This document shows, piece after piece, positions 1 to 15,299 of a DNA stretch of 15,299 bases. A model generated the notes under the pieces. The model was not told where the DNA came from. It ran no database searches and was given only the letters and a program-made list of their open reading frames with translations. The DNA is taken from NCBI GenBank assembly GCA_015039315.1, contig WIDE01000122.1:1-15299 (forward strand). Reading direction: 5' to 3'. The translations under genes and the position numbers were made by a program. How positions within the stretch are numbered: the first letter of the stretch is position 1; each line of letters starts with the position of its first letter. Source of the DNA: Clavulina sp. PMI_390 (lineage: Eukaryota; Basidiomycota; Agaricomycetes; Cantharellales; Hydnaceae).

Positions 1-300
1 ATCGCCATCAGCACTGTCCTCGGGTCCACCTACACTTCTTGGGTCGACTCAGCCTACTTGTAATCCCTTCTGGACTGCACGTCCACGTGGCTACCGGATA
101 AATCCCGCCCTTTTTGGCGTACGAAGCTGTCATCTTCTTTACAAGAAGTAATGCCAATGATTATCAACCTTTGTGACTGTTCATACTATCCTGCCCTGCA
201 GGGTACCAGCCCGTACGGCCGTTACTTCAAAGCAATTACCCCCGAAGATGATATTCGCAACTATAAGATACAGCATAATGCTCGAATAATGATCGGGTAT
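1..300. other. Non-coding flank, no gene recognised
   Basis: No convincing gene is seen in these 300 bases. They lie downstream of the stop codon of the minus-strand secreted-protein fragment that ends at 301. A short plus-strand frame that starts at 151 and overlaps that fragment has no recognisable motif and is probably chance. Confidence 0.5.
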
Positions 301-818
301 CTAATAGGTAATAGTAACAACTCCGTTGGTTGCACCATCAACGTTAACGGAAGCAGTGACTCCGTCAGCACTATCGCTATTAACAGACCAGGATAGGGCA
401 GGTGTTCCGCCTGTACCAGTGATCTGGATGTTGTTGAAAACGGTGGAACCAGCAGGATAGTCTGTAGAGGCAGTGATGCCGTAGCATTCGAGGGTCTCGG
501 TGGCCCAAACCAGCTCAGCCGAACCAGAAAGTGCAAGACCGCCGGCCGCCGGGATATTCGAGAATTCCGAAAGATAATTATAGGAGCTCCCGCTCTGTCC
601 CGTGAGGGTGATGAGACCCGTCAGCTCGTCACCCACGTTCACATTATAGAGTGTGGTGTAGTATGTCTAATTATGGCACCATGGATGAAGGAGCACACAC
701 GGTGAGGATTTATATCAGTGAAGACTGAGAGCTATCCGTTGAATTAGATGACTTACCCCGCCGGTTCCAACGTACCACGAGGCGATGGACCAATATGCGC
801 CACCACCAGCAGCGGAGC
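301..818 (-). pseudogene. 3' half of a secreted beta-sandwich-type family gene, 5' end missing
   Basis: Two exons are visible on the minus strand: 818-757 and 666-301, joined by a 90-nt GTAAGT...TTAG intron (756-667). The first encodes an SAAGGGAYWSIASWYV motif. The second continues with YYTTLYNVNVGDELTG and an Ala/Ser/Gly/Thr-rich beta-strand-like stretch, and ends with GVVTITY and a TAG stop. The tail is nearly the same as the partial gene at the right edge (26 of 30 final residues match by eye), so this is a paralogue family. I recognise the pattern from secreted hypothetical proteins of basidiomycetes, perhaps with a concanavalin A-like fold, but no enzyme function can be assigned. The exon that should precede it (VFLFNSIEP...ILQPVLQ in the copy near 13.4 kb) is absent. 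Upstream of 889 the sequence is unrelated, so there is no start codon or signal peptide here. The missing part may be the fragment at 13391-13895. Confidence 0.75.
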
Positions 819-880
819 CTGTCATACAACCGCACATCAATCCACAACATCAGCAACACGCCCCACAAGCCCAAAAAGGA

Positions 881-889
881 AATATTTAC
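881..889. repeat. Left copy of a 9-bp direct repeat at the family break point
   Basis: AATATTTAC is identical to 13382-13390. On the minus strand it reads GTAAATATT, which would serve as the 5' splice site of the 71-nt intron (889-819) before the SAAGGG exon. It marks the point where similarity to the secreted family stops. It could be a target-site duplication of an inserted segment. At nine AT-rich bases, chance is not excluded. Confidence 0.4.
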
Positions 890-1718
890 AGGCCTTTCGC
901 GGTCATGAAGGCTTCCTTGATTGCAACAATGAGGAGCGCGCAATATATTGAATTTGTAGAGTGCACACTAAATACGTAAAGAGGCATCACCTCAGTGGGC
1001 TCGAGTGCCAGACAGCAGTAAGGAATGGCGGAGGTCGAAAAGGTGCGGAGGAGTGGAGAAAGTCGCATCTATATTTGTTATGGTAGGGCTAAGGGTATGA
1101 AACTCATCAGCAAAGCGGTACAAAATCTAATTCACCCTAGTCAGGATTACTTCCTCGAAGCGCGCGACTCGGGAATTGTGTACTTGCAAAAATCCTGCCA
1201 CCAACGACAAGCGTCGATCTCCTTGTCTGGTTGCCGTCTACACCCCCCGTTGTCTTGAGCACCCCGAGGCGAATATTCCTGTCTCTTCCCCAAGCGTCTT
1301 CTTATGATGATGGAATCGTATCACTATCTGTTGATTGACCTACTACAATGCATTCACATAGACGATACCCCCAATGTTGTACATGCAATGTCTGCATCCC
1401 TGGTGTTCCGAATGTCATCTGAGTAAGCGTTTTCAACATGCCTACTACAGCTACGATACCAAAAACTGGCCTCTCTGTCACATGGGCTAATAGCCATCAT
1501 TGCGAAGATGAGCTGGAATGGTTGATGGGCATGCCAACTGAGCCGAAGTATCGTTTACTTATTCTGATTTTCAGCCTTTTTTTCGCCCCTTCTTTATGTT
1601 CCCCAACAGCGAGTATATGCACACTCATGAATCCGCTGTTCCTCAGGGTCGAGTGTACCTTAGCCAACAGTCCGTTCCCTCAGTATCATGGTAGTATGTA
1701 CAGTACGAACTCTATGCA
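890..1718. other. Long stretch without a recognisable gene
   Basis: About 830 bases between the family break point and the 3' end of the REC114-like gene. Short open frames exist on the plus strand (1025-1258, 1438-1797) and on the minus strand (886-1068). None shows a domain, consistent splice signals or a family motif, and one overlaps the 3' end of the neighbouring gene. Probably non-coding. Confidence 0.5.
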
Positions 1719-2917
1719 TCAAGATATATACATCGCGTCTTCCTCCTCGCAGTCGCAACTTATATTCCCTTTTTTTGCTTCGCCATCAGCATGCTAGTGT
1801 ACTTAGTCCAAAACTTGTGTTATTACACACAGTGGAAGTATTGCCTCCTTGAAAAAACTCACAAGTTTACGAAACTGAGGATCGGCTATTTTTCCATCTA
1901 CGATGGCGGAGATGTGCTCAAGCATGCTGGAAGGGGCTCCCTTAGCAGCAAGATGCATGGGTAATAGGGATAGTAAGACGTCTCGAGCACCGGCGCGATA
2001 ATGGGCTTTGCCGTTGGACAATAGTGGTGGTGCAAGGGCCGGCGGGGTATCTTCTTGAGCATTCATACTCGCGGAATTCGCGAGGTGGGAATGATTTATT
2101 GAGTACGGTCCCGCTCCGACTAGGTTTGATAGAGACGCTAAACCTAGAGGTTGTGCAGCAGTTAATCCTCCTGAAAGGCCCTGTAATACCAGTAGACGAC
2201 ACTCAGAGGGAGTCTGCCTATAGGATTTGGGTCGAGGATCTCCAGCAAATTTGTGCACATTGTTACCCTCCTTTGTAGATTGCACACGAGACTTCCGCAG
2301 CTTTGATATATCCTCACAGAAAATTGAGGTTTCGACCATCGAGATTAGCTTGTTCAAATCGCGATCGTTTGTGAAAATGATGCAAAAACGTCGACGGGCC
2401 TGAAAAGGAAAAAGGTTAGAAAGGTCAATCTCTGCCAACAGAAAACAGCAGTGCCATACGATTTCGGCGCCACTGGGCAAAATATGCTGAGGGGGGTCTT
2501 GGAACTCAATATATGCCGTAACATTGTCTTGGACCAGCCTGATAGGATGGTAATTCTTGCTCGCATTTGTCAGGCCTTCATCTCTATATAGCTTTCCCGC
2601 CAGCGACACATTCAAGTCCTCCTGAGCCAAAAAGAAGAAAAAATCAATATGCAAGCGAAATGAAAGAATCACACACAATACGTCACATAAGCAACAATTT
2701 CGACCCGCGAACTTTTATCTCCTTTCAGTAAAGCTTTCATTTGGGACTCTTCAATTATGATCAAGTGGTCCGAGCCGTCGGACACCTCAATTATACACAA
2801 GAAGACGGATGCTGACTTCTGAATATACTCTGGATTGGGATATGATCCGGCAGAGGGCAGCAGATAGTCGTCTGCCCGGGAGAAAGAGATTAATGGACAT
2901 ATCAGCTTTAGAGACAT
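1719..2917 (-). CDS. Putative REC114-like meiotic recombination protein (weak match)
   Basis: Predicted exons are 2917-2687, 2621-2460, 2399-1863 and 1793-1719, about 334 aa, with all junctions in phase 0. The start is the ATG giving MSLKLICPLIS. The last intron (1862-1794) has GTGAGT, a GGACTAAG branch-like site and CACTAG; if it is retained, the frame stops at 1803 instead. The N-terminal part alternates hydrophobic strands (VFLCIIEVSDGSDHLIIIEES) and ends in RRRFCIIFTNDRDLNKLISM, as expected of a PH-like domain. A Ser/Ala/Gly/Pro-rich middle is followed by a C-terminal helix with IADPQFRKLV. A PH-like N-terminus, loose linker and short C-terminal helix with a D-P-x-F-x-x-(F/L)-V core is the plan of REC114/Rec7, a partner of Mei4 and Mer2 in SPO11-dependent break formation. 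The assignment is inferred from layout and one short motif, so treat it as a hypothesis. The gene is divergent from the zinc-finger gene, with 77 bp between start codons, so the two may share a promoter. Confidence 0.4.
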
Positions 2918-2994
2918 TTGGTTGGGGTCGTTGTGAGTGGGTTGTGTGTACCCTTATTTTCTACTGTGTGCTCTCGATTTCCTTTTGTGCAAAA

Positions 2995-3762
2995 ATGGAC
3001 GGAGCAAAAGGAACTTTTGATTCTGTCTGGTGCCAAGCCTGTTCAAAGTGGCTCTCAAACGAGAAAAATTGGCGAGCGCATGTGAGAACGAAACCTCATA
3101 TCACAAGCCGAGAACAGATGTGGCAAAAGCAACCTTCAACACCATATGTCCCGCCGAACCCCGGCCAATACTGTGCCGCGTGCTTGTGTTACTTTCGTAA
3201 CCTCCGTAAATTTAACCAGCACCTCAAAGAATCTGATCACTATGATGCCTTAGCAGCCTTTAAAGCTGTTGCACCAAATTCGCTTGCGAGTAGTAGCCAG
3301 CTGCCGGATTCCGCACCTATGGAACAGCCTCCAGCCGATACTCGGCGTGAAAGCATTCCCACCGAAATAATCTCGTCGCCACATGTCCCCGAGTTCAACA
3401 TTGATACTGCAAGTCATGATAGTGACGAGAGCAACCCTGTTTACTGATAAGCTCTCTACCAGGCTTTAGCAGAGGCACTCGTTGAGATCACACCCTTGGG
3501 ATGGACTGCTGAACAATTTCTAGACGTGCTATCAGGTCCATCCAAGGAACTCGGTGATTTATTAGTCCTTCAAAGACCAGGTGTGTTCAGCGTCTGAATT
3601 AACTAGTCTCCTCTGCGAACCTCACCCAATGCATGGGCGCTTTATTTGTCAGATGAGCGCAGCTCCGGCAGTACCGTGATCGATCCAGAACTCCTCCTTG
3701 AAGATGAGCTTTCACAACAGGGGGCAAAACTCGCCCCGGGCACGAACACGACTCAAGGATAG
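2995..3762 (+). CDS. Two-finger C2H2 zinc-finger protein, with in-frame stops inside a 24-bp GT-AG segment
   Basis: The start is the ATG after AAAA at 2995, just ahead of the first finger. Two similar C2H2 fingers follow, each C-x2-C-x12-H-x5-H: WCQACSKWLSNEKNWRAHV...H near residues 12-35 and YCAACLCYFRNLRKFNQHL...H near residues 60-83. The long spacing of the histidines resembles U1/JAZ-type fingers that bind RNA or structured nucleic acid, but the target is unknown. A Ser/Pro/Glu-rich tail follows. The frame meets TGA TAA at 3445-3450. Coding sequence then resumes in the same frame (ALAEALVEITPLGWTAEQFL), and a normal 72-nt intron (3581-3652, GTGTGT...GTCAG) leads to a last acidic exon (3653-3762). 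Joining 2995-3438, 3463-3580 and 3653-3762 gives about 223 aa, but this needs a 24-nt intron (3439-3462), shorter than known spliceosomal norms. Either the protein ends at 3447 or the gene carries nonsense codons. Confidence 0.65.
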
Positions 3763-4256
3763 TCCTGTGCACGACTTGGTCTGGCGTCCGCCAATAGCCC
3801 ACGAGGTTGTCCGTGCAGCCCCAATAGTCTCGCTATCCTGTTTCAGTCTACCGTGCCTCGCGTTCCCGATCCTTTCTTGATTACTGCAATATTTCTTGAT
3901 CAGGCAGCGCATGATTTGATCCTTTTCGCAGCCATTGCTAACCCACGGCAACAGATCATCCAACTACATTTTGCGCGTTCCTCCCCAGTCTTGTACACTT
4001 CTTATTCATCCTTGCCACTATCACCCAGTAAATATTATCGCACATGTCGTGATTGACAATCGATGAGGTACTAATGGTACATGCACAGAGAGAAATGCGG
4101 GCAAGGAAAGGATACTTTCTGAGGTATCATTCAAAACAACAAGATAACAAGGGAAAGCTACAAACTGCCAAACTGGAGTCGTAACAAAGGAAGTTGCAAA
4201 GGTAACAATATGGAGGAACGAAGAGAAATTGGTGTTTGAGAAAGGCGAGAAGCAAT
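3763..4256. other. Intergenic stretch, no gene recognised
   Basis: This lies downstream of the zinc-finger gene. Short open frames occur on both strands (3698-3880, 3853-4056, 3712-3963), but none has a motif or a coherent exon chain. It is probably 3' UTR and spacer leading into the minisatellite. Confidence 0.45.
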
Positions 4257-4457
4257 ATTCGAATGCAGTGGTGGTGTCAAGATGACCGGGTTATTCGGAT
4301 GCAGTGGTGGTATCAAGATGCGAGAATTATGGAAGTGCGGCGATGGTAACAAGATGAGAGGATTATTCGAGTGCAGTGGGCGTGACAAGATGAGGAGTTA
4401 TGCGAGTGCAGTGTTGATGAAAGTTGAAAGGATTATTCGAATGAAGCGGTGCAGTGG
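4257..4457. repeat. Degenerate 36-bp tandem minisatellite, about 5.5 units
   Basis: Units start at about 4257, 4293, 4329, 4365, 4400 and 4435, with a consensus near ATTCGAGTGCAGTGGTGG followed by TAACAAGATGAGAGGATT. Units are 35-36 bp and the last is partial. The period is a multiple of three, so one plus-strand frame shows a 12-residue repeat pattern, but it has no recognisable gene context. It lies between the convergent 3' ends of the zinc-finger and homeodomain genes. A weaker related stretch (GGTAACAATATGGAGG) precedes it. Confidence 0.75.
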
Positions 4458-4676
4458 CCATTATTCAGGTGATAGGATCGAAATGTGATGAATGCATGGT
4501 GCGGATGGTGCAGGCAATACTAGGAGTGACGAGCGGAGATTGAAGTATGAGAAGCTGATTGGACGGTGCCGTGGTGATTATGCAACGAAACTTCGACGCG
4601 GGAGTCGTGGAGTTGCGTGAGTTATAGCAGAAGGAAGCGGTGGTGTATACATGTCGGCGTCATAGTACGAGTCAGT
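4458..4676. other. Spacer after the minisatellite
   Basis: Short spacer immediately downstream of the homeodomain gene's stop codon. It is GA-rich on the plus strand and shows no gene. Confidence 0.4.
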
Positions 4677-6477
4677 CTACTCCGAGTCGCTGCTGCGCAT
4701 GCGCTTGCGGTGGAGAGGCTTCACGTAGTTTTCGATGACTTTTGGACAGTTCTATGGGCATTTTTGAGAAGAAGAGAAAACAATAAGATAGAAGATAGAA
4801 CGAAGCATTCACAAAGTCGAGGGCGTACTCTGGTGAACCAGTCGTAGATCTGAACCCGATCAAGTTCGGTAGCGATAATCAGCCGATCCATCTCCGGTCC
4901 ATCAGGTTCGGGGCTGGACCCATCTTTATGCTCATCGAGCCATTTTTGCATGACGGCAACGCTTGGTGCTGGTAAAGCCCGATCGGGCGGCTGAAAGTTC
5001 GGGATTAGTTTCGGCCGGTTCTAAACATGGGGAAAGAGACGAGTAAGCATAGAGAAGGAGTGGATAATGCGAAGACGCACATGGATCAACCAACTGTGAA
5101 CTTGCACCTTTGTGAAGCCAGTAGCTCGACAGAGCTCCTTCAGCTGGTCTTGATCAGGGTAAGGGTTGTCCAAATTTTCCTCCGTCCACGCCGTGAGTAT
5201 CGCAACGGATTCCTTACGGAGACGCTTGTTCTCACGGTTAGGCGTGTAACCTTCAAGCTTTGGCCGGTTCTATATCATGTATAAAGAGAGAGAGAGCAGC
5301 GAGTCAGTACCGCTCTGAAGAGTCGAACACCAACCAGAAGAGAACGCACATGATTGATCCAATTCAGAACTTTGTCTTCAGGGGTGTCTGTAGCAATTGA
5401 GAGCGCCTTCAAATCCTCCGGAGTGGGTTTAGGATTCTCGCGATGCGAGTCAAGCCACGCCTGCAGGACTGCAACGACCTTGGGCGACAACGTTCCTAGC
5501 CGATGAGCATCTGGGAGTATCTTAGATCGGTTCTATAGGTAATTGGATCATAATAAGTATTGGGAAAGCACCCCAAAGCATTGGAAGGAAACAGGACGAC
5601 ATACTCTTCTCATCCATTGCAGTACTTGCTTTGGAGACTTGTTTGTCTGACGAGCCAGTTCTTGAAGGTCTTCAGGGTTCGGGTAAGGAGCGTCTTTATT
5701 ATCGATGTACCACTTCGACATGATCTCTTTATCTTCGGTCGTAAACACCACGGGAGGGTTTCTCTTTCTTGGGGAAGCTGCCTTCGTAGCCCTAGGCTGC
5801 CAACTCGGCAGGATTCTTGGTCGATGCTATGAACGAACAGCACACGTTATTTCTGTCCGCGCGAACACAACGTTACTGGTTTCATGAGCACTTACATGGC
5901 CAAACCAGGTCTTGACCTTTTCGATAGGTGCTCCGGTGGCCTGAGCAAGCTCCTGCCACTCCTTCTTGTTTGGTCTTGGGTTCGGTTCATGATCGAACAT
6001 CCACTTCGTCATAATCTCCTGTTGTTCATCGTTAAAGACCCAAACATTTCCCTCCAGCACTGCGATCATCCATGGCTTCCATGAGGCATCAAGGACAAAT
6101 GTCGTCAGACCAAACCCAATACCAGGACTCCTGCAAGAAATCACCTGAGCCCCGTCAATTTTTTTCGCCTTTTCTTTAAGAGCATCGAGCTCGGCGGCCT
6201 TGTCGAGGCACTCATCATCAGATTCTTCAGCGGGGATAGAAGCGTCGTCGTCATCATCATGGTCTTCGACACCTTCATCGGGGTCTTCTTCGCGGTGGTC
6301 AGGCTCGTGTTTGATTGTAGCAGGCGATCGAGAAGCAGAGGGAAAGGTAGACGCGACGGGAGAAGAGGGGACAAGACGTTCTCCACCACGTAAAATCGCA
6401 CCATTGTCTTCCTCTTCGGAATCGAGCGCATCAGCCTTGCGCTTTTTGATCCCTGTCTTCGAGGGTTTGGATTTCAT
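4677..6477 (-). CDS. Protein with five tandem TALE-like homeodomains, one per exon
   Basis: Six exons: 6477-5896, 5826-5605, 5532-5350, 5269-5081, 5020-4829 and 4751-4677, all joined in phase 0, about 480 aa. The N-terminus has Lys/Arg clusters and an Asp/Glu-rich region (residues about 20-110). Homeodomain-like repeats follow at about residues 147-194 (first), then exons for 195-268, 269-329, 330-392 and 393-456. Each has a helix 1 around a conserved Trp, a TALE-type loop (APYPNPED, NPYPDQDQ, NPKPTPED, NPRPNKKE), helix 2 (LxxLAxxT) and helix 3 ending W-(F/M/I/L)-x-(H/R). After every intron the next exon opens with NRPKL-like residues (HRPRILP, NRSKILP, NRPKLEG, NRPKLIP, NCPKVIE), which complete helix 3: Arg53 is kept except in the last, while the near-invariant Asn51 is His or Arg. 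The C-terminus is a short basic tail (HRKRMRSSDSE). Probably a nuclear DNA-binding protein; targets unknown. An unrecognised intron within exon 1 near 6145-6060 is possible, since that stretch looks less conserved. Confidence 0.85.
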
Positions 6478-6523
6478 GTCGGATAAAAACCAGATCGCGG
6501 GGTGAGAACTTTTTTGAGATGGT

Positions 6524-7961
6524 GTGGCGGAGTGGAACCCAACTGTACTGCGTGACGCAGCACGTGCCTCGGCGCTTATCTTCGCCGCCTACAATATGCA
6601 GGTTTGTTGGACTGAGGCTTTCAAACCCAGCTCAGACCTTCCCGTCCTGCTTAAATACATCATTATGTCTCTTTCCACACTCTTAAAAGCCGAAACAAGG
6701 GACATCATAAGCTCTCTAGTGCTCTACCGTCTCTCATAACTGTGATAAACACCTCTCCGTCCATCAAAATACGTCTCTCCGCCTATAACCAAGGCAGCCA
6801 AGTCCCAGTCGATGAGCTTCTTGAATGCGACTTAGGAAAAGTGCTGCTTCGCGCCTTGAATGAGGTACTCACATCTGTGCGAACACTCAAGGATCCTGAA
6901 CGACGTGAAATGTTTCTCAGGTGCAAACAAAACTCAAGCCCCATGCCTCACCACGTGCAATCAAACAGGAGGGTGACTATCTGACAAGTAAGTATTACCT
7001 TCAGTTCTGCACTTCGGAAGCACCTATCCCAAGGGAGCCTGCTGGGCGCGAACTGCATTGGTTTGATACAAGGAAAGTGTGCCCAACAACTGACTACTCT
7101 TATCATAATTCAGCAACTCTCGAACCCAAAAATGATGTGCAACACGCCCCTCCAACTCGATCAGATGGACCCCAAGCCTCACTCGACTGGCTCGAGATCG
7201 AAGTTCAGGCAAGACACCTAGCTCGACCAGGCCACAAGCTTCTCAGTGTGTTTGATCCGTTGATTCCGATCATTTTTCTCAAAAAATGGCAAGCTCTGCT
7301 GTACCGAGCGCTAGAGCAAGGCGTCGTAGGGTCAGATCTACTGTTCGATCATACTGCATTCTAGCTCACACCATTATGCAGGAAATACCCAGCCATCTTC
7401 CGAGACCCCTCCATGGTATGGATTTGATTCGCCTGCGCCCATTTTTCCTCTCACACAGTACGCTATCTAGGATGACTCCGACACTCTTGGTAGCTCCCAG
7501 ATTCCCATATTTGCAGAATCGCTGATGGAGATCCTCAGTGTTGACGATAGCCTGAAAGCAGACGTCACCGCTCTATGTGATACTGTGGGACCTCTGCGCG
7601 CCCGTAGAGCAGACGCGGCGTGGATAGCACTTTCAGTACTCGAATGCAAAGGCCGACGGTTGTTTTCTATGGGAGAGGTGGAGAAAGCTCGACAGTCCCT
7701 ACCCGAAGCCCCCCCGATTACCAACATCACTGAGGAAACTGCAGCCCCGCGCCTCCAGAATGGTATCAGGGAAGCCTTCGAGGTCTATCATGAAGCTTAC
7801 GTTACAGCTTTCCCTTCGCACAAGGTATTGATTCTTCTTACTGCCCATCTGCATGTCGAGCTGATGACCTGTGGCATCAACCCCCTGTTGTTCGCTAGTA
7901 CTTCACTAACTTGGCTAGAACGATACTTGGCCCTGAGACTCTACTTCCGCGAGCTAGCTGA
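6524..7961 (+). CDS. Unrecognised multi-exon gene
   Basis: Several linked coding exons of unknown function. The firmest part is 7382-7415 (encoding KYPAIFRDPSM), an intron GTATGG...CTATCTAG (7416-7470), exon 7471-7824 (118 codons, beginning DDSDTLGSSQ), an intron 7825-7898, and a last exon 7899-7961 ending in TGA. All fit phase. Upstream, an exon from about 6524 to 6601 (WNPTVLRDAARASALIFAAY) and one from about 6712 (LSSALPSLITVINTSPSIKI... to RDPERR-like residues near 6900) look coding. The exons between 6930 and 7340 are ambiguous because two frames stay open. The first coding frame has no ATG (the first usable codon is GTG at 6524; an ATG at 6519 is out of frame), so the true start or a first small exon is unresolved. 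The start region lies only about 45 bp from the start of the divergent homeodomain gene, and the 3' end converges on SPO11. No domain is recognised; it looks mostly helical and soluble. Confidence 0.55.
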
Positions 7962-8145
7962 AATGATTCCCCTCTTTGTACCTTATCATCTTGCAATATT
8001 AAGTAAACGCCTTGCACATTGATTCAGGAAGATTGAACCTGCCGCCTGATGAGCTCGAACAATTGATGATGGCAATAATTATTCGCACAATTAATTGTAG
8101 AGAATATGGATCAGACGAAGAAGTAAAGCTAAGTTTTGAGCCCGA

Positions 8146-9972
8146 CTAAGCGTCAAGAGGTGGCAGCCCCGCCTTGTACATTTCGCTAACGAGGAAAGGA
8201 ATGAAACGAGAGCCCTTGGCCAGTGCATCCCATGCCTGAAGGATTTCTTTTCGCCGATAAGAAGGGAGATTCTCACTGAGTAAAGGAGGCGATAACCTCT
8301 GGAAATCAATGTACTTTATGGATTCCAGGTCCGCCCTGAACCCGAATGATTTGATGCCTTCAATTTCGGCCCTTACATACGGGAAGAATGAGTATATGAA
8401 TGGGGCAAGATTCTTTCGCCAGAAGGGACGGTGTAAGGAACTTACTTTATCAGCGCAGGTACAAACGATTCGTCACGGGCAAGCATGGCGTTAGCCTGGA
8501 GGAACGAGCTAGTGAACGGTTGCGCGGATATCAGAGTTGGCAAAACTCAAACCTTCTTATAGTCCATCGGTTCCAAGAGTAGCAGGTATCTCTGGGGGAT
8601 CCTGTGCAGCACGATATTTACTACATAGGACGCGTGGTGGGACAAAGCACATAGACTCACATTGTGAGGTGCCGAACTTGTAGCCCGATAACCTCCAAGT
8701 CAGGGCATGATTGAGTCGCGGCGGCATAACTCATGGAAATCGACCCGCATTGGTAAACAGCAGTGATCTCCTTCCCATAGGGGTCACAGTCGGTAAACAC
8801 CCAGAACCTAACGCTATGATCCATTGGGCGTGTTGGCGTAAAACCTCGAATCATGCAGCCTTAAGTATTTACTCACTTTCCGGCAAGTTGGAGGTTCAAG
8901 CGATGGAGGAATATACGGGTTCCCACATCCCCATACCCTTTGCCCTATAGGAACAGATCAGAAACATGAGACCACACGGAGGATAAGCTTTAGGGCATCA
9001 AAACACACCGTTAGAATGAGACCCTGTTTGCTGAGTAGTGGGTGGTTTGCCAAGCTGGCATCACGCAGAACCTGCCAGACCGTCTTGGGGGCCATGAATA
9101 TTGGAGAGGGTTACGATAAGTTATCGACTTACTTCCTTCTCCACCACAAGAACCCATCCAATTTTCAACTTCATCGACCTCGACAAGGTAGCCGTACGAG
9201 CAAATTCCGGCTCGATCAATGTGCGGACGTTGGGCTTGACATGCACTGGTCCACGCTCATCTACGAATTCGACGTCACATGCGCAGACCGACCCTTTACT
9301 TGAGGCAACCTGGATCATAGTTCCCGGTCAGTTTATAGCCCAGAGACCCAACGAGTCGATTCGCTTACAACACCAAGGTCATATCTCGTGACTCTCAGGG
9401 TTGCGGCCAAATAGTCGAGTTGCTTCAGTGCCGGTGAGATTGGTCGAGCATACGAGTCAAAAAGTTGACATAAAGACGGTGCTTACCCTGTCTATTCTTC
9501 GTTGGCTGAGAAAGAGTTTTTTGTCGAGATAGAGGATAGACCTACAAGTCTCGCGAGTCAATATAGGATGGAGAGGGCCTCCTATGTTTACGCACCGTTT
9601 TAGAATAGTTTCGCCCCTCATGAGCGTCGTGATGCATATGCTGATCAATTTCAGGAGCCTCGCTGTTGAACGATAGCTTTCAGCCGCGAGAATCGTAAGA
9701 AAAAGGAGCTATACAACTCACCTGCAAAGGTTTCGTTGTTTGGCCATCGGATTATTCGAAAAGCCCTACGTCGCGCACATGTCAGAACGCCGATGTACAA
9801 TGAAAAGAAAGTGAAAATACTTCTTGTCTGGATATCTGAGCTTGATTCGAAGCTTTTTTCTCTTTGCTCTAGGGTTACCCGGCGTATATAGAATGCTGTT
9901 TGCGCGGGTCGCCCTTCGGAGCATCGGGCGAAGAATAAGTGATGCTAGCCGATTCACGACGGTGTTGCGTGA
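8146..9972 (-). CDS. SPO11: SPO11, meiotic double-strand-break transesterase (topoisomerase VI-A family)
   Basis: SPO11 cuts DNA by a tyrosine transesterification to start meiotic recombination. Exons: 9972-9821 (3' part of a longer exon), 9765-9722, 9662-9596, 9541-9487, 9422-9369, 9309-9133, 9083-9009, 8944-8877, 8807-8661, 8601-8553, 8495-8446 and 8371-8146; all phases match. Family landmarks occur in order: the 5Y-CAP (winged-helix) region around GETILKR|SILYLDKKLF with the catalytic Tyr at 9531-9529; LDYLAATLRVTRYDLGV; SSKGSVC; the TOPRIM metal site Glu in WVLVVEKE; GKGYGDVGTR; the DxD motif in FTDCDPYGKEI with YQCGS; and a C-terminal YKKANAML...FGFRADLES helix region. The usual acidic residue after the Arg before the catalytic Tyr is Ser here. 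A free-standing protein could start at the Met at 9924-9922 (about 371 aa, a normal SPO11 length). However, family-like residues (SRNTVVNRLASLIL) begin upstream of it, and the frame is open all the way back into the USP-like domain, so this is probably the C-terminal part of a fusion. Confidence 0.93.
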
Positions 9973-12526
9973 CGCAAGGGACGTTTGATCTTGAAGTTCG
10001 TCCTCCGGCTCGTCGTCGCCGCTATCGTCGTCGCCTTCATCCTCGTTCTCATCCTCGTCTTCGCCATCATCCTCATCCTCGTCTTCATCCTCGTCCTCAT
10101 CGCTGTCGTCGTATCCGTCGTCGAGATAATCATCGAAACTGTCATCTGGGTTGTCAATCTCGAGACCCTCGCCGCCATCGCTCGCCTGCTCCGCTTCATT
10201 CTCCGCTTCATGATCCGAGAAGACGACTTCCTGAAGGAGCGGAAGTAAGTTCTCTCCCGGCACTCGGCGATAGACCGCGAGGCTAACATTCTGAGGGATG
10301 ATGGTCCGAGAGTAATCTTCTGGGATGACTGGCGTGGATGAGCCAACAATCATAGAAGTGCGCCGATCGTCCTTGAACGACCACGAATCCCCGTCTCGCA
10401 CAACGCAGAGCCAGTGCCCGCGAGCCCAATCGTGACCGACATGATACGCGAAACCCTGCAGCTCAAACACCTTCACAAACATCAAACATGAGTGAGAAAA
10501 CAGCAGTCTCGAGGACAGGTTGCGAGCTAACTCTAACCTCATCAGGATGTTCTTCCCCGCCATCGGCCACGGGCCGGCATATCACTCGATTAATATCGAC
10601 ATGCCTCAAAGTTTTAGCACCCTCGAGAGCTCGATTGATGGCCACAACGACCATCGATCCCAGGGAGACGACCTCCACTAACTCCGCTTCGTGGTGTCGC
10701 GGATCGCAGTAGCACACTGATCGGTTATTGGTGACGGCCGTCATGGGTGGTGGAGCCAGGTCGGCGTCTTTAAGAGGCTTGGCATTCAGCCAATCGCTGA
10801 ACACGTCCTGCGTGCTTGTTGAGGCAGGCTCGTTCAAAAGACCCCTCATTACCGTAGGCGCGCCTGCCTCAACAAAAGGCTTCTGGCAGACGTCGCAGAA
10901 CTCTCGGGAGCGTAGCACAGCCGAGGCTTGCCCCAGCACCAGGAGCAATGCAGTCATAAACTCGGGAGCGTCGTGCTCCTTGGTTATGTCCCACAGGTGG
11001 CCTAATGCGGCATACTCCACTACAAAACGACCCATAAAAACGTCTAGTTGGTCCCGAAGAGAATCCTCCGGAGCGTTTGCTTCCATGAGGCTGTATAGCA
11101 TACCGAGAGCACCACGCACAGAGCCATCATCGCGACGGGGGAGTCCCAATGTCTCCACGACAGAATGAAGCAAGTGTATATCGACAATCGCATAGCACAG
11201 TATCCCTGGATTGGGGATACCACTAGTCGACGATAGTGCGCTCGAGTTTGGACCCTGGTCATGAGAGGAGGAGAGGGATGATGTGGAAGATGAACAGTCC
11301 TCTATATGGCCGTCGACGGCGGCAGTGGTGGGGAGATGAGCCATCGATGCTGATTTGGGAGTCGCAGTCGTCTTTCGGGTAGAGTGGGGGCTGGAATCGG
11401 CAGGCTTCCCACTGACAAGGTGAAAATTGTCGTCAGTGGCGCTTTCGGAATCAGCTGGGAAATCGAAGGCATAAGATCGATCAGAACGAGACAAGGAGTG
11501 TAGGAAAAAAAACGAACTAGAATCGCGCGACTCTCTGGGAACACTCCTGCCCACCCAAAATGGGTTATCCTACGCCACACTCGTCAATTTATGAGACTGT
11601 AAGATCTGAGCGTCCGTACTCACAGGGTCATCCCGAGTGCTTGCATTCGTCGGCTCATCTTGGTTCAGGTCTGTAAACAGAGCTGGCAAGACGTCTGTGG
11701 GCTTGAGGCCTCCACGACGAGGGTTGTTGCCGGGTTCTAAGAAGGCTTCTACCAAGAAAAACCAGACAGATAACGAGATTTCACATTCTACTGTTTATGA
11801 TAGACGGCTAGATGATCGCGGTACTTACTTGCTGCTAGCTCTCTGTTTAGAGTGGTGTGGGGATACCCCAGTTTGGGAGCTGGAGATGGTGTCACCGGCC
11901 GCGATCCCGAGCTACTTGCCTCTGTTGTCGAAGGGCTCGGAGATCTCATGTCGACAGAGGTTTCTTGGGAGCCATATTAGAGCGCAGGACCTACGGACAA
12001 GAACGAGAACAGCTCACTTTCTCTGGTGAGACTTTGGGGTGTTGTGCCCGTCAGCCTAGGAAATTTGGCTGCCTTCATTGGCTCTACGATTGCTAGATCA
12101 CATTTCAATAGGTTTCAACGCGATTTAATAAGGACCGTGGCTCACTTGGTGTAGCTGGCAGCGCACGCTTGATTTGAGCGTCCTGGTGGAAGTGATCATT
12201 GAGGGTAGAGAACAAACACATGTGAGTTAATGTAGACATACGTCGACACGACTGTGTTGAACAGGCGTGGGAGAGGCAATGGGTTTCTCCTCACTACTAG
12301 GCTCGAGGCCGATGAGGATAGGGCGGGGAGTGGGAGTGTTGTCATTTTCGCTACTATCCTCGATTTCAATGGGAGCTGAGTTTACAAAGAAGGAGCGGGA
12401 CGAGCACGCTAATATCAGAACCCGGTTGCCTGGCCTAGTGATGGAGAAAAAGATCTCACCTTCCACACTCGAGGCCAAGTTTCGCTTGGCTTTTGGAGTT
12501 TTCTTAGTTTTACTCTTCCGGGCCAT
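9973..12526 (-). CDS. Ubiquitin-specific-protease-like domain, in frame with SPO11
   Basis: Exons: 12526-12460, 12375-12242, 12182-12146, 12092-12018, 11963-11829, 11748-11624, 11569-10538 and 10470-9973 (this last exon continues to 9821 as SPO11). The start ATG opens a basic N-terminus (MARKSKTKKTPKAKR), followed by a Ser/Pro-rich disordered stretch. The USP features are a Cys box NPGILCYAIVDIHLL (Cys near residue 316, oxyanion-type Asn five before it), EHDAPEFMTALL matching the DAxEF box, a zinc-type CDVC...CYC pair, and a His box YHVGHDWARGHWLCVV (His near 554) with Asp in WSFKDD (about 569). So the cysteine-protease triad of deubiquitinases (peptidase family C19) appears intact, although the Cys box is unusual (GILCY in place of GNTCY). 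The domain ends at NVSLAVYRRV and runs, without a stop or Met, into an acidic linker and SPO11; the whole frame is about 1,088 aa. If translated as one protein, it would bring deubiquitinase-type activity to the break-making enzyme (inference). Confidence 0.78.
9985..10218 (-). repeat. Acidic Asp/Glu low-complexity linker (GAY/GAR simple-repeat DNA)
   Basis: Encodes about 78 residues (about 620-697 of the joined frame) that are largely Asp and Glu, densest at 10020-10125, where the plus strand is a (TCNTCN)n-like pyrimidine-rich tract. It lies between the USP-like domain and SPO11. Such tracts vary in length by slippage, so this is also where a frameshift or assembly error could create or hide a stop codon. 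Confidence 0.85.
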
Positions 12527-13381
12527 TGTTGGGGGAAAGGAGTTGGATGGAACGGCTGGTGAAAGACAGAAGGAGAAAATCCAGGATTGTCAACGCCGAG
12601 TACCGAAAAATAAGCGCGATCCCTCACATTTTTATTCCTCCATTTCGAGCAAATGGACCTGACGAATCGGGGTCGAGATGCACCCAAAATGGCGAATCAT
12701 GAACTCAATGATTTGCGACAGAGCAGGCAGGTTGGTTTACCAGCCCGGCCAGACCAGTCAAGCCCTGCCGAAATCCACTGAGGGCTCAAATTCCCTCGTT
12801 GCTTTCCCCAACCTGTAAGGTGGACTGAGCTTGCGCACTGGTGACACCAAGCAGACTGTCCAGCCGAGGCCCGCGGAGAAGCATGCCTCCAATTCTACAC
12901 GGGAATCATCCGCAAATCCCTACATAGAATAGAAGTGCGAGATTCGTGTCATCAACACGTGATTCACTCGAGCAAGCCTGTCATTGTCTAGATTTGGCTA
13001 GATAGCACCCCCATTTCTCAAGGTGGCTCATCGCCTCCGGACTTCCCACTAAAAATGCTCAGCATCCTTACATGGTGGCAAAGCATTGATTCCATTTCAA
13101 TTGTGTCGGGCCAGGCCATATTCTCTAGAGAGCTTCAAAATTGTTTAGGCTGGAACCGAGAAATTCATCGCAAGGCCATAGGTAGAGATAACACAGGGAA
13201 GACGATGTAATCCAAGAGAATTCAGGAGCGAGCTGCTGGAAAGTCGAATACTGTGGGCCTGACGAACAGAAAAGGGATGCAAACATGTTGGGGAGCGGTT
13301 GTTTACTACTGTTTTTACGTGTTGTTCTCGGCCTCGGCAGGATGTACGATGTCGAGTGTAAAAAACTAAAGAATTTATTGG
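12527..13381. other. 5' flank of the USP-SPO11 frame, no gene recognised
   Basis: About 855 bases upstream of the USP-like start codon, up to the family break point at 13382. It should contain that gene's promoter. I see no convincing TATA box or known meiotic control site. The minus-strand frame that reads out of the secreted-protein fragment into this region (to 13125) shows no family similarity. Confidence 0.45.
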
Positions 13382-13390
13382 AATATTTAC
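13382..13390. repeat. Right copy of the 9-bp direct repeat at the family break point
   Basis: AATATTTAC, identical to 881-889. On the minus strand it gives GTAAATATT directly after the last family-type exon, and can act as a 5' splice site. The two copies bound 12,492 bp. Confidence 0.4.
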
Positions 13391-13895
13391 GAAAAAAGCA
13401 CTGAAGCACTGGCTGCAAAATTGCGTTGAACGCTGCGGGTTCGATGGAGTTGAAGAGGAAAACTGTTTGGCCGTTGTTTGTTTGAGGGGCGGGCGGAACC
13501 GTCCAGCTCGTGACAAAGTTATTGATCGGACCGTTGGACTCGGTATTATACCACGACGTATATGCGGTCCAACCAGTCTCAAAACGCTTTGAAGTAGGAG
13601 CAGGAGCGGTGTTCTGGGCGATGTGGATGACCTTGCCCGCAGCGTTGATGAGGTGCGTCTCGTTTCCAACGTGCTTAATGGAACCACCTAATGAAGCAAC
13701 AATATACTTCAAGAGACTATTGGAAATAGATTCAAATATGTAGTTCAACGTACCAGCAGGAACCTCGTGTACTTCGGATGCAGAGCGGAGACCCACAGGG
13801 GTAACAACCATGCCCGACCGGGCTGCCGGCACAGCGAGGGCGGGAACGATGAAGGCCAGAATGGCGAGTGAAGCGCGGAAAACGGTGGAGACCAT
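13391..13895 (-). pseudogene. 5' half of a secreted family gene with signal peptide, 3' end missing
   Basis: Exon 1 (13895-13754) starts with MVSTVFRASLAILAFIVPAL, a clear signal peptide, so the product was secreted. An upstream in-frame Met exists, but this one gives the better signal. A 66-nt intron (13753-13688, GTACGT...TTAG, phase 1) leads to exon 2 (13687-13391), which encodes GSIKHVGNETHLINAAGK, then GWTAYTSWYN, NNFVTSWTVPPAPQTNNGQT, VFLFNSIEPAAF and ILQPVLQ. In this family that motif is normally followed by an SAAGGGxYWS exon, which is absent here but present at 818-757. Exon 2 ends in phase 1 at the GTAAATATT splice site, and the 818 exon begins with the two bases needed. Translation straight through gives an unrelated tail to a stop at 13125. 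It may therefore be a broken gene or make a truncated secreted protein. Confidence 0.75.
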
Positions 13896-15194
13896 GGTGA
13901 GGAATGCTATAGCGGGAAAGTGGAGTTGAGCGAGAGCAGAGACGACAAATAGTAGACGAGGCACATACAGTGGCGGGGAGAGGAGCTGGGTGGAGCTTGG
14001 AGCTTGAGGCCCCAAGGCTCCACTTGCTTGTAGGCTTTATAGAGCACAAGGATCCTTATGATTTCTCTTGGTTCGGCGTCTAGGTTGCGACAGAGTATGA
14101 TGATGCGGGGAAGATCAACGACGACATTCCATTCAGTCATCAAGTGGAGTCGACAATTGCTCGCGGGACCGCCAGTCAGGTTTATCTCCTTGAATAGCAC
14201 AGTTTATGAATTCATATTTTGGGCGGGGCGGTCGCCGACTTAGTATGCCGACGGACGACGAGGGTGCATTCGTTAAGCTTACATATCCAATAAAGTGGGG
14301 AGGAGGGCATTCAGAATGTATGGGTGCTAGAGATCAGAGTGAAGCAATGTGATGATCCGCGCGATTTGCTTCATCGTTGAGCACGCTGCCGCAAGCTGGT
14401 GACATTCACTAGCCTTCGCAACCAATGATGACGTCTCATATGTCCACCATGCCCAACGTGCGTGGCGAGAGAGAGAGCTCCATCAGTGTTGGGGCATATA
14501 AAAAAAAAACACTATCGCTAGTTGCTGTTGGACGGCACAGGGAAGTTTGTGCCAGAAATCAATCATACTGGGCATGCGGGTTCAAACTATTTCGAGCAAT
14601 TAGGTGTCAAATATAAAGTTCAGTAGCGCTCAAACTGATGTCGAGCGAGGAAGAAGAGATGCACATGATGACCTTATGGAACCATCGCAATTCCGATTAG
14701 TAGAGTTGTGGACAAGTGGCTGGTCGCCTCGTTAGAGCCCGAGTGGATCACGCCAGCTAAACAAAACTGATAAAGAAAGGCCATTGAGCACGGAATTTTC
14801 TCTTCGGCTTCGATGCCTTAGCTGCCGGTTTCCTATGAGGTACTCTCGTCAGCTTCCTTGTTTGAGTCGGAAATCGTTGACCCGGCCGTTGTTGTCTATT
14901 GTTATTCGCTGTCACCTCACCCCCACGCCACTGAAAGCCTTGCGCAAACCGGTCCAGGTATGGGCAGACGGCCGTACGGGTTCGGCGGAAAACCAAAGAT
15001 TCACCTTCATCCGGTCCTACAGCCGGAATGAGATATATCTGTCGTCGTAATTGGCTCCTGAGTACCACCATTTCCGGTAGCACCCTATCTTTTCTTACTA
15101 GTGGCCCCTCTGAGATCGACGGTCAATCCAAGGTCAAAAGAGTGATTAATTCCGGTATTAAAAACTTCATAATACTCGAATAATAATAGGATAT
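13896..15194. other. Intergenic region between two secreted-family copies
   Basis: About 1.3 kb upstream of the signal-peptide gene fragment and downstream of the next paralogue's stop. A minus-strand frame at 14757-15083 (basic, no recognisable domain) and short plus-strand frames are seen, but none is convincing. An A-rich run occurs near 14500-14512. Confidence 0.45.
14037..14042 (-). promoter_or_regulatory. TATA-box candidate for the secreted-family gene
   Basis: TATAAA on the minus strand (context CTATAAAGCC), about 140 bp upstream of the ATG at 13895. The position is reasonable for a fungal core promoter with a short 5' UTR. Six bases in isolation are weak evidence. Confidence 0.35.
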
Positions 15195-15299
15195 TTAGTA
15201 CGTTATGGTGACAACCCCGTTGGTTGCACCATCAGTGTTAACAGTAGCAGTAACTCCATCGGCGGTATCGCTGCTAACAGACCATGAGAGAGAGGGAGT
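15195..15299 (-). CDS. C-terminus of another secreted-family paralogue, cut by the window edge
   Basis: The minus-strand frame from the right edge reads PSLSWSVSSDTADGVTATVN and ends GVVTITY then TAA (15197-15195). Its last 30 residues match the fragment ending at 301 except for four conservative or small changes. It shows that this secreted family is present as clustered copies on the same strand. Its 5' part lies outside the window. Confidence 0.8.
   Translation of the reverse strand, partial: TPSLSWSVSSDTADGVTATVNTDGATNGVVTITY

Follow-up and report, generated by a model that had tools for sequence, protein, structure and literature searches.

A predicted gene joining a USP-type deubiquitinase domain to a second SPO11 paralog in the fungus Clavulina sp. 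PMI_390

The window analysed here is a stretch of 15,299 nucleotides from the basidiomycete Clavulina sp. PMI_390 (GenBank assembly GCA_015039315.1, contig WIDE01000122.1, positions 1 to 15,299). Its minus strand carries a gene (8146..12526) predicted to encode one protein in which a USP-type deubiquitinase domain is followed by SPO11, the enzyme of meiotic DNA breaks. Sequence comparisons indicate that this is most likely a functional USP-SPO11 chimeric gene and not a gene-prediction merge. The fused copy is most likely a second, rapidly evolving SPO11 paralog rather than the main SPO11 of the genome. The in-frame pairing of the two domains had been proposed in a first-pass annotation; it is supported here and strengthened by introns on both halves. 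The USP and SPO11 domains are of known kinds, and what is new is their combination together with a second SPO11 in a fungus.

A single reading frame through both domains

From the ATG at 12526 to the TAG at 8146 the spliced frame is open over 1055 codons and predicts a 1055-aa protein with a low-complexity N-terminus, a USP-type deubiquitinase, an acidic linker and SPO11, in that order. Splicing, the single open frame and codon usage define 20 exons (12526-12460, 12375-12242, 12182-12146, 12092-12018, 11921-11829, 11748-11624, 11569-11518, 11454-10538, 10470-9821, 9765-9722, 9662-9596, 9541-9487, 9422-9369, 9309-9133, 9083-9009, 8944-8877, 8813-8661, 8601-8553, 8495-8446 and 8371-8146) and 19 introns, all of them GT-AG. 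The first-pass annotation was right that phase is kept between these two codons, and its count of nineteen exons is corrected to 20. The acceptors at 9084 and 8814 yield the SPO11-like readings VEKETVWQ and GNVRFWVFTDCDPYG; different acceptors at these two places would yield 1049-1053 aa. The seven small exons of the low-complexity region (11518..12526, minus strand) have the least certain start codon and exon edges, and this region had no match among the 11 other loci searched. Codon usage prefers the modelled frame in 17 of the 20 exons, the misses being three small SPO11 exons (9765-9722, 9662-9596 and 9541-9487). Its score is near zero over the SPO11 exons and is biased in favour of the USP part, the training set being 11 frames that all come from USP-family loci.

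The end of the USP domain, the linker and the start of SPO11 all lie within the single open exon 10470-9821. Only 0.075% of 20,000 first-order Markov draws stay open over this exon. The linker alone stays open in 4.8% of draws under the same control, so its openness is weak evidence by itself. The exon holds two in-frame methionines, at 10353 within the USP domain and at 9924 within the SPO11 N-terminal segment. The earlier description of this exon is thereby confirmed, both in its content (USP His/Asp box, acidic linker and SPO11 segment without a stop) and in placing the sole methionine between the modules (9924-9922) among SPO11-like residues.

The linker (9985..10217, minus strand) is rich in Asp and Glu and holds an imperfect 12/18-bp tandem repeat (10025-10101), with an identical reading frame on either side of the acidic tract. 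Its codon usage scores 22.7 for the modelled frame versus -14.3 and -82.5 for the others; we would guess that the high value comes partly from acidic codons that are common in the training set. Acidic N-termini are also found in the SPO11 of Cyclocybe and in a second SPO11 of this genome (described below), so the linker may be the ancestral SPO11 N-terminus. The SPO11 part begins upstream of intron 9766..9820, the first of the introns shared with that second SPO11, which places its start within the last exon of the USP domain.

Relatives of the two halves in the same genome

The USP-like domain is split on the minus strand into a first part (10538..11221) with the Cys box (Cys281, codon 11197-11195), an HDAPEF box and a CxxC, and a second part (10218..10470) with His519 (10416-10414) and Asp535 (10368-10366). 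Searched alone against PDB, this half recovered only USP12 chains (E=0.011-0.013). A profile of seven domains, consisting of the window copy and six relatives from this genome, matched USP12 at 1.8e-17, USP46 at 3.2e-15 (positions 6-273 of 317) and yeast Ubp8 at 2.5e-14, with 105 PDB sequences at E<=1. The columns of Cys281, His519 and Asp535 are invariant in all seven domains, and the USP12 alignment pairs the same boxes. The first CxxC is likewise invariant (7/7), and the second, CxC-like pair is present only in some rows. Some active USPs lack the zinc. The window domain is divergent and reads GHW instead of GHY, as does the relative on contig C204. All seven domains carry an intron just before (E)VFEL at the same place within two codons, as read by eye (10471..10537 in the window).

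The genome searched (39.4 Mb in 301 contigs) holds about 11 loci of this USP-like family, the window included. The others lie on contigs C280, C202, C204, C113, C35, C275 (three copies, with first USP exons 85-99% alike), C90 and C15 (loci L022-L027, L029, L031 and L032), and C202 carries two tandem USP domains. Identity of the window domain is 42, 41 and 32% to its three nearest rows and 21-22% to the other three in the seven-domain alignment, which was made without the members found later (C113, C90, C15 and two further C275 copies). When 10 frames from relatives were compared with Pfam UCH, three scored above the cut-off (26.6, 28.8 and 27.4 bits versus 23.9), three scored below it and four had no match.

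A second conserved region follows the USP domain in 8 of 10 family loci (the C275 copy near 139.7 kb being left out of the count), with no match at E<=1e-3 for the window and C90. In the window SPO11 occupies the place of this region, and no remnants of it were found there or in C27:15000-24900 at E<=1e-3. The region is conserved in the relatives and has no assigned fold in profile searches. A likeness to GIY-YIG nucleases was suspected by eye and is left unproven. A PDB profile search with the region gave as its best match an unrelated protein (E=1), NCBIfam gave a single chance match in one of five members (E=0.17), and Pfam GIY-YIG matches in this genome occur only on C1.

The SPO11 half (8146..9984, minus strand) carries TP6A_N and Toprim domains. 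From residue 663 to the end it matches Pfam TOP6A-Spo11_Toprim at 5.4e-27 and TP6A_N at 4.7e-11, both above their cut-offs, and in PDB it matches archaeal Top6A (7.5e-12) and yeast Spo11 (6.2e-11). The active-site set is intact, with Arg754, Tyr758 (codon 9531-9529), Glu847 (9141-9139), Asp905 (8791-8789) and Asp907 (8785-8783). No stop occurs in the SPO11 part, versus about 19 expected for random codons.

A Toprim profile found two SPO11 matches in the genome, one on C27 (the window) and one on C249, and a protein search gave the same two contigs. The C249 gene (L028:4323-6370, minus strand) is a conventional SPO11 with an acidic first exon, modelled with 13 exons and 431 aa, a reading that depends on accepting one hand-set GC-AG intron. 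This intron follows directly on the catalytic Glu (VEKE) and is one of three hand-set junctions in the model. With the automatic GT choice the catalytic Glu would be lost; the GC-AG junction was chosen because it retains the motif and matches the intron of the window at this place (GT-AG in the window). Over 340 aligned residues the identity between window and C249 SPO11 is 36%; the C249 sequence used for this and for the invariant-column and tree comparisons carried about 10 intron-derived N-terminal residues. All 11 introns of the window SPO11 part have a partner of the same phase in C249, which has one extra intron upstream. In the pairwise alignment ten pairs share a column, with the eleventh offset by two columns next to a gap. 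In a seven-sequence alignment the eleventh pair agrees and the first is shifted by gaps (612 versus 629). Shared introns in both the USP and SPO11 halves indicate that the chimera was built from genomic DNA and not from retrocopied mRNA.

The window and C249 SPO11 come out as sisters (support 99/98) in a 15-sequence tree built from these two copies and 13 of the 30 proteins that the searches found. The window end branch is about six times longer (2.19 versus 0.36). The tree program warned that placing long branches is difficult, and the intron evidence agrees with the sister placement. In relative-rate comparisons the window copy has more changes against all five outgroups, from 65 versus 20 (P0001, chi-square 23.8) to 45 versus 30 (P0007, chi-square 3.0, not significant). 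The earlier claim of a deubiquitinase physically coupled to the break enzyme is not quite borne out: an ordinary SPO11 exists on C249, which makes the fusion a second paralog.

Proposed origin and possible function of the chimera

The explanation that we favour, to which we give about an even chance, is that a SPO11 duplicate was joined downstream of a USP domain of the local family, giving one protein that would bring a deubiquitinase to the break machinery. The SPO11 gene would have been duplicated, and a DNA rearrangement would then have placed the copy downstream of a USP-type exon pair, where it took the place of the usual C-terminal region. The fusion would be transcribed as one mRNA, made as one protein and act in meiosis. 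Meiotic breaks need a SPO11 dimer. The SPO11 half could supply an address by binding DNA, by pairing with the ordinary SPO11, or both. Once delivered to the break machinery, the USP half would deubiquitinate SPO11, its partners or proteins of the axis, and ubiquitin removal would tune the duration or position of break making. The fusion may act in break control or in SPO11 turnover. The stop-free 1055 codons, the splice signals and the active sites kept at 36-42% identity argue for long constraint on the gene, and on this comparative evidence the frame of the chimera is kept open through deep divergence.

Several observations weigh against this explanation. Three introns of the window gene (12017-11922, 10537-10471 and 9820-9766) were set by hand for frame and lie outside the 70 best of the site scan; intron 10537-10471 has outside support from the USP relatives and intron 9820-9766 from the second SPO11. 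The USP half alone has no Pfam match at E<=10 and no relative at E<=1 in the protein search. Between the window and C249 SPO11, dN is 0.73 and dS is saturated. The window copy keeps 29 of 34 columns invariant in 14 other sequences (counted only where filled in at least 12 sequences), including the Arg/Tyr, the Toprim Glu and the two Asp, and alters five (Gly to Ala, Ala to Thr, Pro to Gly, Lys to Arg and Glu to Asp). When other sequences were left out in turn they kept 34/35 (C249), 34/36 (P0001), 34/35 (P0005), 34/36 (P0007), 34/37 (P0016) and 31/33 (P0027). The altered residues and the dN mean that the activity of the SPO11 half could be altered or lost. Translation from the methionine at 9924 would give an almost full-length SPO11 that lacks the USP domain. 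Finally, no other USP-SPO11 fusion was found in protein searches, each of which scored only about 8000 candidates, those with the most words in common, so that distant cases could be missed.

The same join is also absent from the 30 proteins returned, a set without close relatives of this fungus. The USP-family profile found no USP among them (best 5.7 bits versus 438 for the window). The red-yeast records P0005, P0006 and P0008, with SPO11 proteins of 751-808 aa, were considered as possible fusions, and this profile gave no USP in them. One record (P0001, Cyclocybe aegerita) combines SPO11 with an HNH domain; it could represent either gene models merged into one or a further SPO11 fusion. The merge objection raised by P0001 does not apply to the window, because the join lies inside a single exon. 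Literature searches on SPO11 fusions, on ubiquitin or deubiquitinases in SPO11 control and on fungal SPO11 copies gave no title or abstract opening that concerned a USP-SPO11 fusion. The earlier statement that no such fusion is known agrees with the protein and literature searches, within these limits.

An unlikely but serious alternative is that the fusion is functional and its SPO11 half does not cut, serving as an address for DNA or a partner, or that the USP half is only a ubiquitin-binding module. In its favour are the fast branch, the five altered invariant positions and the divergent USP domain, with GHW for GHY here and in C204. However, the USP triad is complete and all five active-site residues of SPO11 are intact, and keeping both sites despite divergence is unexpected if neither half is catalytic. 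The SPO11 half may still cut DNA.

A more ambitious version, which we regard as doubtful, has the fusion acting as both deubiquitinase and break enzyme and forming heterodimers with the ordinary SPO11, the ratio of fused to plain protein setting break number or SPO11 lifetime. If true, each mixed dimer would carry its own ubiquitin eraser and the fungus would have a SPO11 pair with divided labour. Neither a SPO11 with a built-in ubiquitin switch nor such a divided-labour fungal pair was found described.

It is improbable that the locus represents two genes in one exon, with separate or overlapping USP and SPO11-paralog transcripts and a SPO11 start at 9924. The in-frame methionine there would allow this, and the C249 SPO11 is a stand-alone protein. 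However, the USP end and the SPO11 start are only about 230 bases apart in one open frame that fits codon usage, and exon 10470-9821 gives the USP domain no stop. The methionine falls within the SPO11 N-terminal segment, and SPO11 homology continues into the USP exon, on the upstream side of the shared intron at 9820. A form unspliced at 10537 would reach a stop at 10463, ahead of the USP His box.

That the chimera died recently or is dying, or that an assembly error produced it, is very improbable: assembly slips are possible in the imperfect repeat of the acidic tract, no ortholog was found in protein searches and some splice donors are off consensus (GTTCGT, GTTAGA, GTATTT and GTTTGA among them), but all 19 introns are GT-AG, the 1055 codons are free of stops at 36-42% identity to the nearest relatives, the frame agrees on either side of the acidic tract and the active sites are kept.

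Neighbouring features and known systems

Elsewhere in the window, five homeodomain-like units lie in a row on the minus strand (4721-6588), in neighbouring open frames that resemble exons of one gene. Homeobox_KN passes its Pfam threshold in four of these frames (5830-6588, 5551-5826, 5278-5532 and 5024-5269) and scores below it in the fifth (4724-5020). To our knowledge a poly-homeodomain protein would be unusual in a fungus. An open frame on the plus strand (2761-3447) has C2H2 zinc-finger matches (zf-C2H2_jaz, 6.1e-08), and a 36-bp tandem repeat of 5.5 copies with 71% matches lies at 4256-4451. The window holds no TTAGGG-type telomere repeat. Whether the USP half came from a mobile element or a virus was also considered, and a single scan of viral contigs gave no relative.

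The control of SPO11 is a central open question in meiosis. A natural SPO11 with an attached deubiquitinase would link ubiquitin directly to break formation and would be a ready tool for testing that link. Even if the SPO11 half is only an address tag, the gene would be an example of a meiotic DNA-cutting enzyme reused. In mouse, dimeric SPO11-TOP6BL assemblies cut DNA, with E224, D277, D279 and Y138 at the active site, and weak dimerisation is proposed as a limit that holds the enzyme nearly off without helpers (PMC11601517). In plants SPO11-1 and SPO11-2 form a required heterodimer, and two functional SPO11 paralogs are stated to be absent from animals and fungi (PMC13143177). The second SPO11 reported here departs from that stated view. 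The USP-family protein DUO-1 is needed for meiotic axes in the worm, and early double-strand break repair intermediates accumulate without it (PMC13012089).

The window protein shares with conventional SPO11 and topoisomerase VI A proteins (the C249 copy and yeast Spo11) the TP6A_N and Toprim domains and the Arg/Tyr, Glu and Asp-x-Asp residues, and with C249 the full set of 11 paired introns. It differs in the USP domain and acidic linker placed in front, in an end branch roughly six times as long as the C249 one and in the five changes at 34 invariant columns. As in the SPO11-1/SPO11-2 pairs of plants and protists, a single genome carries two SPO11 genes that have active-site residues; here, however, one of the two is fused to a deubiquitinase, and within the 15 sequences compared the window copy is the sister of C249. 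With USP-family deubiquitinases (USP12, USP46 and Ubp8 by profile, DUO-1 as a meiotic example) it shares the Cys, His and Asp boxes and one CxxC, whereas the window domain has no Pfam match when taken alone, its second CxxC is not clearly placed and it is joined to SPO11. The local USP-like family shares with it the USP domain and an intron at about the same place, but 8 of 10 family loci run into another conserved region where the window gene runs into SPO11.

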